A DNA stretch of 64,000 nucleotides from Desulfothermus okinawensis JCM 13304 (lineage in GTDB: Bacteria; Desulfobacterota; Desulfovibrionia; Desulfovibrionales; Desulfothermaceae), in the NCBI GenBank assembly GCA_001311565.1, contig BBBM01000006.1, forward strand, positions 1 to 64,000. The letters run 5' to 3'. Within the stretch, counting starts at the first letter, position 1, and each line of letters begins with the position of its first letter. The position numbers and the translations under genes are program-made. Under the pieces are notes generated by a model, which was not told the origin of the DNA, did not search any database, and saw nothing but the letters and a program-made list of their open reading frames with translations. Shown piece by piece: positions 7,802 to 10,548 of this stretch.

Positions 7802-8641
7802 TTAATATGGCTTTTGATAGGCTATACAATTTTGAAATTTTCGCACCTTAAACAAAGAACATATCCTGCTCATGGACTCAGAATGTCCAAGAAAGATGAA
7901 CCCCCCTGGATTTAAGCTGTCATAAAAACTGTTTGCTACTTTTGCCCTGGCCTTATCATCAAAATATATTAAAAGATTGCGACAGAATATCACATCAAAA
8001 TACCTCATCTTTTTTTGTTTCAAGCACATTGAAGACATTTACCCGCTTAAATTCTATGGCATCTCTTATATCCTCGGTTAGTTGGTATTTACCTTCACCA
8101 AGGGATTTAAAATATTTTTTTAATCAAAGTGCGTGGCAATTGTTTTATTGACCTGGTTCCATAAATCCCCTTTTTGGCTTTTTCCAGGGCATTTGTATCT
8201 ATATCTGAGGCAACTATTTCAACGTCAAATTTATCAATATCTGGCCAATATTCCAGAAGATATATGGCAATAGAATATGGTTCTTCTCCTGTGGAACAGG
8301 GAATTGACCATATTCGTATAAGATTTTCCCTTTTACTTTCACATATCTCAGGAAGCACTTCTTCAACCAAACACTTAAACTGGTATTCTTCTCTAAAAAA
8401 AATATGTCTCATTAACTGTCATGAGATTGACCAGATTCTCAAATTCCTTACCACTTCTGTCAAATCTGAGATATATAAAATAAGAACGAAAATCCTTATA
8501 ACCTGTGGCCTTGATTCGCTCTATAAGTCTCTTGTCCACAAAATATCTCTTTGAATTTCCAAAATAAATACCTGTTTTTTTGTAAAAATATTCTCTAAAT
8601 TTTTCAAAGTCGTGATCTGTTATTACAATATCATCCTGCAT
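7802..8641 (-). CDS. cheR: CheR chemoreceptor methyltransferase
   Basis: The protein has about 278 aa in three frame pieces. The N-terminal helical domain reads into MTVNETYFFREEYQF; the SAM-binding part has the motif IWSIPCSTGEEPYSIAI, followed by VEIVASDIDTNALEKA and FDVIFCRNLLIYFD, all diagnostic of CheR. It methylates glutamates on the MCPs encoded in the locus, opposing CheB. A/T runs at about 8396-8402, 8114-8121 and 8008-8014 break the frame. It is the first gene after the Rpn insertion, so its original transcript with cheB has probably been altered. Confidence 0.92.
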
Positions 8642-8654
8642 GTAGGTACTCCCT

Positions 8655-8761
8655 AACCCGGGTTGTCAAAACCTGGGTTAACTATTAGAACAATTTTAAT
8701 TTAATATTCTCTTTCTACCCCCTAGTTTAGTATTTAGTATTTTGATAAATCGGAGGGTTAA
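8655..8761. repeat. Repeat-rich left flank of the Rpn gene
   Basis: AACCCGGGTT (8655-8664) and AACCTGGGTT (8670-8679) lie five bases apart. At 8739-8761 is ATTTTGATAAAT followed by CGGAGGGTTAA. Both kinds of motif recur on the other side of the Rpn gene (9876-9887 and 9901-9921), and the second also recurs inverted at 21181-21201. The flanks may mark a mobile cassette or a dispersed intergenic repeat; which one is not decided by the sequence. Confidence 0.5.
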
Positions 8762-8801: not shown

Positions 8802-9122
8802 TCACTTATCGCTAACCCTTAAAAATTCCTCTATCTCCTTTATATCTCTGGATTTAAGCACCAATCTGTTGAGTTTCTTTAGTGTGTCTTTGCTCTCTAT
8901 TTTATTTATCTTTTCTCTTAACCTCTTGGGCACATTGTCAAACTTTAGCTCAATACCCTCTATGATCATAGTGCGCATTGCATATATCATCCCTTCCTGA
9001 ATACCATGTTGCCTGCCTTGCTGAATCCCCTGCTGGATTCCCTGTTGTATTCCCTGCTGGATTCCCTGTTGTATTCCCTGCTGGATTCCCTGTTGTATCC
9101 ATTTTTGAGCCAATGACGGCAT
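8802..9122 (-). CDS. Predicted intragenic short product of the Rpn gene (RpnS-like)
   Basis: An in-frame ATG at 9122-9120 is preceded by AGGAGGTGA (9135-9127), a near-perfect ribosome site with five bases between it and the ATG. Translation would give a 106-aa protein starting MPSLAQKWIQQG that contains the GIQQ repeats and the C-terminal domain but not the nuclease. In E. coli, Rpn genes encode such C-terminal short proteins (RpnS) from internal starts, and these neutralise the full nuclease. The ribosome site is seen here; the antitoxin role is inferred from that family. Confidence 0.6.
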   Translation of the reverse strand: MPSLAQKWIQQGIQQGIQQGIQQGIQQGIQQGIQQGRQHGIQEGMIYAMRTMIIEGIELKFDNVPKRLREKINKIESKDTLKKLNRLVLKSRDIKEIEEFLRVSDK

Positions 9123-9840
9123 ACTATCACCTCCTATTCCTTCTAATATCTCCTCTAATTCCTCCTCTGATGCCTCACTTCCTGCTGATATATACTCTAA
9201 AACTAACATCAATCTATTCTTATCTATACTGTACACCTTCTTTAATACAGGTGTTAATGACTCCTTTAAACCTCTTATCTCATCAAATATGTGTTTCATG
9301 CATAAAAGGCCTGCGCTTAAAAACAAGTTCACTCCTATATCCAATATTTCTTTATCCTTATATAAATTGGTATCAAACAATACCACCTTAAAATCTACCA
9401 GATACTCTTTTATTTCCTCTGGTACATCAAAATAGTCTGAAAACCTGACTGGTAAATTGTATCTCTTCCTGCCATGATAAAAAAATAACTGGAATTATAG
9501 GCCTTGGCCCCTTACCCCTCTCCATATCCTTCTTCCACATCACCACAAGATAGCTCAATATCTGAATCAATACACGCCTGTCTGGATAGGACTTGTGTTC
9601 AAATACAAAATATAGCTCACCTTCTCTTTTGCCAAATTTGCATCTTACTGCTATATCCAGATAATACCTCTTATATTCCTCATCACTCTTCTCACTATCT
9701 ATTATCTCAACACTGTCTAAATTTATGTGTCTTACCAGAGATTGTGGCAAAAATTCCCTTATAAAATCCCTTACATTCCTCTTATCGCCAAATAGCTTCT
9801 TGAAAAATGTGTCATGGGGACGAGTAACCCTTATATCCAT
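8802..9840 (-). CDS. Rpn-family PD-(D/E)XK nuclease (RpnA/YhgA-like transposase-type)
   Basis: The protein has about 345 aa once one A7 run near 9480 is read as A6. The N-terminus RVTRPHDTFFKKLFGDK and the catalytic-type segment YYLDIAVRCKF...FVFEHKS (Asp, then Glu-x-Lys-like) are typical of the recombination-promoting nuclease family. The C-terminal third starts with seven GIQQ-type repeats and ends in a basic helical tail. E. coli Rpn proteins promote DNA recombination and can act in phage defence. The gene interrupts the che operon between the HEAT and cheR genes, is flanked by short repeats and shares no role with its neighbours, so acquisition by transfer is likely. Confidence 0.88.
9001..9102 (-). 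repeat. 12/24-bp tandem repeat encoding GIQQ
   Basis: The units GGAATCCAGCAG and GGAATACAACAG alternate, giving a 24-bp period, and encode a run of GIQQ tetrapeptides in the Rpn protein. As units are multiples of three, copy-number change alters linker length without breaking the frame. The low-complexity DNA also creates a spurious open frame on the opposite strand. Confidence 0.85.
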
Positions 9841-9875: not shown

Positions 9876-9921
9876 ACCTGGGTTAACATATTGGTTTAGC
9901 ATTTTGATAAATCAGGGTTAA
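9876..9921. repeat. Right flank repeat of the Rpn gene
   Basis: ACCTGGGTTAAC (9876-9887) matches the end of the left repeat at 8671-8682, and ATTTTGATAAATCAGGGTTAA (split as ATTTTGATAAA plus TCAGGGTTAA, 9901-9921) matches 8739-8761 apart from a two-base gap. The element overlaps the end of the HEAT gene and supplies its last codons (NPDLSKC). Confidence 0.5.
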
Positions 9922-10548
9922 GGTCTTGCAACAGTGAATCAATAACAAATGTTATATATGGCTCATCTTTAAATTTATTTTTGATTTCTAAAAGTGTGGG
10001 TTCCATATCTGGAGTAACCACCAGTTCACTTAACGCATCTAAGGCAGTAGAAACTACATTTATATGGTTATCTTTTTTTGCAGTTTCAAGGATCCATTTT
10101 GGAACATCTTTGTGTTTTAAGGAACTCAAGATATTAAGTGCAAAATTCTTATATCTGGATCAGGATGGGTTAGAAGTTTTTCAATGTGTTTTTCCATCTG
10201 ATCTGGCATCTTTTGTAGGACTTCTATAACCCTGTTTCTTAAAGCTGCATCTTCTGATGATAAAAAGGGTATTAACTTTTCTGCAATTGGCTCACAATTT
10301 ATCTCCAGAAGTACATTTAAGATAACATCCTGTACGCTTTTATCTGTTTCCTTTTCTAATCTCTCACAAAGTGGCAAAATTGCCCTTTCACCATACTCAA
10401 GTAAGTCTCTGGCTGCCCATCTCCTTTTTATGGAATCATCATCCTGGAGTTGTTCAACCAGTGTATCAAAATTCCTCTCCTTCTTTCTTCTTTCTCTAGG
10501 TCCATCTTCTTTGGTTGGCTCTGTTTTTCTAGATTTTATAAGACCCAT
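9896..10548 (-). CDS. HEAT-repeat protein of the chemosensory operon
   Basis: The protein has about 217 aa. After a charged N-terminus come helical repeats such as RRWAARDLLEYGERAILPL and ALRNRVIEVLQKMPDQMEKH, typical HEAT/PBS-lyase repeats that act as protein scaffolds. One base is missing near 10148; adding it joins DIRILALNILSSLKHKDVPKW. The gene starts 15 bases after cheB. HEAT proteins beside cheB are known in deltaproteobacterial che clusters, but their task is not settled. The last seven residues are encoded by the flanking repeat, so the original C-terminus may have been replaced. Confidence 0.75.

Follow-up and report, generated by a model that had tools for sequence, protein, structure and literature searches.

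Evidence for a conserved internal translation start and a candidate built-in inhibitor in an rpn nuclease gene of Desulfothermus okinawensis

The rpn gene at positions 8802-9840 of the DNA analyzed here (Desulfothermus okinawensis JCM 13304, contig BBBM01000006.1, positions 1 to 64,000; this whole 64,000-nucleotide stretch is termed the window) raises the question of whether one gene encodes both a nuclease and, from a second start within it, an inhibitor of that nuclease. A 'gene within a gene' toxin-antitoxin system of this kind, RpnL/RpnS, has already been published for E. coli (Zhong et al. 2023, PNAS 120:e2307382120; preprint PMC10327210). The features of the locus are as follows.

9427-9840, minus strand: N-terminal PD-(D/E)XK nuclease part of Rpn, 137 aa in frame (PF04754, E=1.7e-24)
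9479-9485, no strand assigned: A-run (T-run on the coding strand) that breaks the nuclease frame, where a single PF04754 match passes from one frame into another
8802-9386, minus strand: remaining Rpn frame, comprising the end of the Transposase_31 domain and the C-terminal domain (PF04754 continuation)
9127-9135, minus strand: internal Shine-Dalgarno (SD) sequence AGGAGGTGA, the strongest before any ATG of the window and conserved beyond synonymous expectation
8802-9122, minus strand: internal ORF, candidate RpnS inhibitor, 106 aa, starting at ATG 9122-9120, with a predicted helix at residues 4-61 and three short helices (pLDDT 84)
9019-9098, minus strand: tetrapeptide (IQQG) repeat tract with a perfect 24-bp unit, common to RpnL and RpnS

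Inspection of the sequence revealed that the internal SD (minus strand, 9135-9127) is followed by an ATG at 9122-9120 in the same frame as the ORF 8802-9386; the minus-strand site reads GAAGGAATAGGAGGTGATAGT, then ATG, then CCGTCA. This ATG opens a frame of 106 aa plus stop (9122-8802) that begins at the boundary between the nuclease and C-terminal domains, and in silico folding predicted the local mRNA around it to be unstructured. A preliminary description had called the site one of the best ribosome sites in the window, and this was borne out by the duplex energy with the anti-SD (-14.5 kcal/mol), which ranked ATG 9122 first among the 2,415 ATGs on both strands. A plain count of the AGGAGG-N4-9-ATG pattern was rejected as evidence for the start, as six occurrences were found in the window against 4.6 expected; a count at chance level cannot settle the matter, and the motif by itself is no proof. 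Promoter-like sites were at shuffle level, and no internal promoter could be shown. The evidence that decides the case for the proposed internal start is comparative and does not lie in the motif count of the window.

For this comparison, rpn genes were gathered both from relatives at the order level and from the genome collection, their proteins were aligned, and the best SD-preceded start within 5 codons of the column of the window ATG was scored. The synonymous null was obtained by shuffling codons within each gene (500 shuffles). We found a start at the boundary column in 75 homologues (67 ATG and 8 GTG), nearly all of which kept an SD before it; in the eight GTG genes, GTG usually accounted for a minority of the valine codons (about 17-35%; 4/6 in one short fragment). 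The mean SD energy of the 75 homologues was -12.0 kcal/mol as compared with -7.9 kcal/mol for the synonymous shuffles, with 0/500 shuffles reaching the real mean, and 33 representatives below 60% identity gave -11.7 against -7.7 kcal/mol (0/500). An energy of -8 or lower was found in 92% of the homologues but in only 51% on average, and 64% at maximum, of the shuffles, while the other in-frame ATGs of the same genes had a mean of -2.4 and reached -8 in 3% of cases. Weak internal sites were present in a few members, such as L053 and L081 (about -5). In members from the wider phylum whose strongest start lay elsewhere, the boundary SD-ATG was mostly kept where inspected (L133, L135, L151, L147 and L144), and the exceptions were fragments or very divergent members. 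Homologues in which the SD and ATG had been lost while the coding sequence was kept were sought among the 75, and the site survived this comparison. The preliminary description had placed an SD and in-frame ATG at the domain boundary, just before the repeats; sequence, frame and conservation agree on this, and the observation of the internal start was confirmed.

An SD-like sequence at this position might nevertheless be a by-product of coding the conserved Gly/Glu residues of the boundary, with no internal initiation. GGAGGT encodes Gly-Gly, the synonymous null is in itself already fairly strong, and the simple AGGAGG pattern occurs at the chance level given above. Against this, the real SDs exceed their synonymous versions in strength by about 4 kcal/mol, with none of the 500 shuffles reaching the real mean, and the column of the Met retains ATG or GTG. 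Moreover, the residues before the Met vary (IGGD, NKEG, KKEA, REEA and QKED) while the nucleotide SD is maintained, its bases falling in different codon phases through GG, KEG, KEA or EEA. As judged from these alignments, selection at the protein level cannot explain an SD that is kept across codon phases and residues. Members from E. coli and C. difficile have also been shown experimentally to initiate internally at this place (PMC10327210), and we consider the by-product explanation highly improbable.

The nuclease half of the gene required a more cautious reading. The frame 9840-9427 matched the Transposase_31/YhgA-like family PF04754 with 87 bits, over the curated cut-off of 21, and the second part of the domain matched with 42 bits in another frame. 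The catalytic-type residues H-D, D62 and E-H-K are intact in the 9427-9840 frame, at columns conserved in 26 aligned homologues, and correspond to D11, D63 and E82/Q84 of RpnA, on which activity depends in E. coli, D11, D63 and E82 being reported there as required (PMC5350276). The full-length nuclease is divided in the assembly into two frames (9840-9427 and the frame ending at 8802) in place of an uninterrupted one, with the break within the A-run 9479-9485, downstream of the catalytic motif. This break had been overlooked when the locus was first described as one Rpn gene, and of the earlier claim that one gene encodes nuclease and inhibitor, the internal start stands, whereas the nuclease frame is broken as assembled and the small protein alone is an intact frame of the window gene.

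The break could mean that the gene is a true pseudogene or switched off, with the inhibitor left as an orphan antitoxin, and stand-alone RpnS genes are indeed known beside rpn genes in E. coli (PMC10327210). However, the catalytic residues are intact, and the neighboring genes are damaged as well: cheR and a HEAT-repeat gene lie in pieces in the window (7802-8641; 9896-10548) whose junctions mostly lie close to runs of 7-8 A or T, the HEAT-repeat break being an exception with just a short run nearby. In a genus relative (G001, locus L113), both genes are uninterrupted, with 213 aa for the HEAT-repeat gene and 279 aa for cheR, and the completeness of the present genome is 43.8% compared with 84-95% in genus relatives. 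Because the neighbors also break, mostly at homopolymers, and because the completeness is so low, we judged the rpn break to be most likely technical; it is probably an assembly error, and a genuine pseudogene appears unlikely. The seven-base homopolymer at the break might alternatively act in phase variation, or as a site of slippage, switching the full-length nuclease on and off against constant production of the inhibitor. The run lacks conservation, though, the corresponding codons of the intact paralogue L001 having just four T, and it is an ordinary one among the 208 A/T runs of seven or more in the window; we give this explanation slightly less credence still than the coding by-product. 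Whether the break is an error also bears on the function of the window copy, and ORF-based readings of the window should allow for homopolymer indels. The second rpn copy of the same genome (C63, L001 1465-2457) is intact, with 330 aa, and has aggaggtaagaagATG at the homologous place, which is the same internal start. In further searches of the locus, PADLOC returned just a weak 'putative invertase' match and Rfam returned zero matches; FliH and Yae1 family matches were rejected, as they reflected repeat composition alone and were below the curated cut-offs.

The two starts also differed in strength. The internal SD was stronger than the best primary SD in 56 of the 56 genes with a placeable primary start (mean -11.1 versus -2.4), and the primary site of the window gene scored -4.2, where the long ORFs of the window average -5.6. 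More inhibitor than nuclease is therefore predicted, and from these site strengths the inhibitor should be made in excess, in agreement with the higher RpnS levels in E. coli (PMC10327210).

The repeat tract consists of 3.0 copies of the 24-bp unit (100% match) and encodes seven IQQG units followed by RQHG and IQEG. Counted along the internal ORF, it starts at residue 9, which falls in the range of 8-20 reported for RpnS (PMC10327210). The suggestion that the tract can change length held up, since relatives that are 94-96% identical (L048/L068/L069 and L090/L091) have C-terminal parts whose lengths are 4 or 8 residues apart; among relatives, some C-terminal length differences are not multiples of four. 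Over this part of the protein, the two rpn copies of the genome share 42% identity, and their alignment has a gap of 16 residues within the repeats. In a monomer model, the 106-aa product was predicted to form one long repeat-bearing helix (residues 4-61) and then three short helices (pLDDT 84). The full-length model of L001 revealed a nuclease part in alpha-beta-beta-beta-alpha-beta order, as expected of PD-(D/E)XK enzymes, then a break at residues 237-239 and a long helix, and the internal start of this protein falls on Met 242, just past the predicted break. A sequence search of the small protein against solved PDB structures gave zero matches, and so none to RpnA_S (PDB 7TH0). Foldseek searches of the PDB gave no confident match for the small-protein model, 7TH0 included, or for the full-length model.

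Comparison with E. coli RpnL/RpnS revealed in both cases a PF04754 PD-(D/E)XK nuclease whose domain boundary carries an internal SD and ATG, four-residue repeats starting 8-20 residues past the internal Met in a first helix (predicted for the window gene), and length changes in four-residue steps among close relatives. Some differences were present: the window C-terminal domain has diverged too far to match RpnA_S by sequence, its repeats are of the IQQG type, its active site reads E-H-K where RpnA has E-x-Q, its nuclease frame is broken in the assembly, and the window gene is known from sequence alone. In C. difficile, RpnS has been shown to be made from an internal start and is abolished by mutating the SD and start (PMC10327210), although that organism belongs to another phylum and the same restriction to sequence applies to the window gene. 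Stand-alone RpnS proteins with DUF4351 (PF14261) are a further relative, as this profile matched 11 of 27 aligned RpnS domains (window and relatives; E<=0.01); the window domain itself fell below a match to it and is embedded, not a separate gene. In Type I-D Cas10d/Cas11d, as cited in PMC10327210, the C-terminal part of a defense-system gene is also translated internally, but by that account the small product is a Cascade complex subunit and not an inhibitor.

Taken together, we assign a probability of roughly 85% to the window locus being an rpn gene of the RpnL/RpnS type, with its inhibitor made from the internal start; for the window gene, this reading of the start is supported, with the caveat of the broken nuclease frame. 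On a single mRNA, a weak ribosome start at 9840 would give the full-length PD-(D/E)XK nuclease, and the strong start at ATG 9122 would give the C-terminal domain alone. Using its first helix, which bears the repeats, the small protein would pair with the identical segment of the full-length protein and thereby hold the nuclease inactive, and the repeat number would set the specificity of pairing, as it does in E. coli RpnC (PMC10327210). The start, its conservation, the synonymous constraint, the inverted site strengths, the boundary position and the four-residue steps in this proposal are read from the sequences. That the repeat helix mediates binding to the full-length protein, and that DNA cleavage is blocked, is inferred from E. 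coli and C. difficile, and production of the small protein, inhibition and phage defense by the window gene may be expected by analogy with E. coli. Phage defense has been shown for a plasmid-borne rpn, according to PMC10327210 and to PNAS 120:e2307382120 as cited in PMC12707154.

The window C-terminal domain additionally retrieved two other nuclease-like families, groups B and C. In group B, the '..PWKEALE..' family (L012, L037 and L160-L171), GAGGAGG or a close variant preceded EE..MPYVTSVERIG in 12 of 12 genes, with a mean SD energy of -12.0 versus -7.1 for synonymous shuffles. Group C, the 'MHYDIASK' family (L008, L016 and L172-L199), lacks a Pfam nuclease match and has RRRDIMIESAAYEIIK in 27 of 28 genes; its internal SD, composed mostly of the arginine codons AGA-AGG-AGG, precedes RRRD(I/L)M and a tetrapeptide-repeat C-terminus, with a mean of -10.8 against -5.4 for the shuffles. 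PF04754 was matched by 0 of 19 members in group C and by 2 of 11 in group B, both below cut-off. Whole-length profiles of the two groups matched Rpn with 99.5-99.6% probability, driven by the common C-terminus, while the N-terminal domains alone aligned their D...E core positions with those of Rpn at a probability of 59% for group C and 11% for group B. A search of viral contigs with a group B protein found zero relatives. Published rpn work surveyed the group COG5464 (PMC10327210), which may include these families; what is new here, as far as sequence comparison goes, is a conserved internal SD-ATG in two families that have a repeat C-terminus and lie below the Pfam threshold for Rpn. The repeat C-terminus with its own SD and start might be a portable built-in inhibitor module on at least three divergent nuclease-like families, so that intragenic antitoxins would reach beyond annotated Rpn and a weak outer with a strong inner start would be a general design; we regard the chances for and against this as about even.

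With regard to the genomic setting, the HEAT-repeat gene directly adjoins cheR in G001, with about 28 nt between the frames, which corresponds to an empty site. Because these two genes are adjacent there, the window rpn gene is read as an insertion in a chemotaxis cluster. Such an insertion agrees with the mobility already known for these genes. An imperfect 22-nt direct repeat, TTTAGYATTTTGATAAATC, flanks rpn at 8733-8754 and 9895-9916, with three further loose copies in the genome (five in total) and zero in the reversed control. It was considered as a mobile-element end and rejected, as the five loose copies do not make a clear element. By eye, the intact rpn of L001 lies between genes for a caspase-like peptidase and a formylglycine-generating-enzyme-like protein (L001 1-1430 and 2600-3520), and this neighborhood is possibly a conflict or defense setting. 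Two order-level relatives (G024 and G036) contained about 25 rpn matches per genome, some of them close together, and these paralogues would be useful for studying the divergence of repeat number.

These results provide quantitative evolutionary support for an in-gene Rpn inhibitor in a phylum for which we found no experiments. Since the inner start is consistently the stronger one, the inhibitor should be in excess. The two nuclease-like families outside annotated Rpn are places in which to test the same arrangement, and annotators gain from the pattern a simple rule by which hidden antitoxins can be found. Provided that the internal starts are functional, the built-in inhibitor would be a module common to divergent nucleases.
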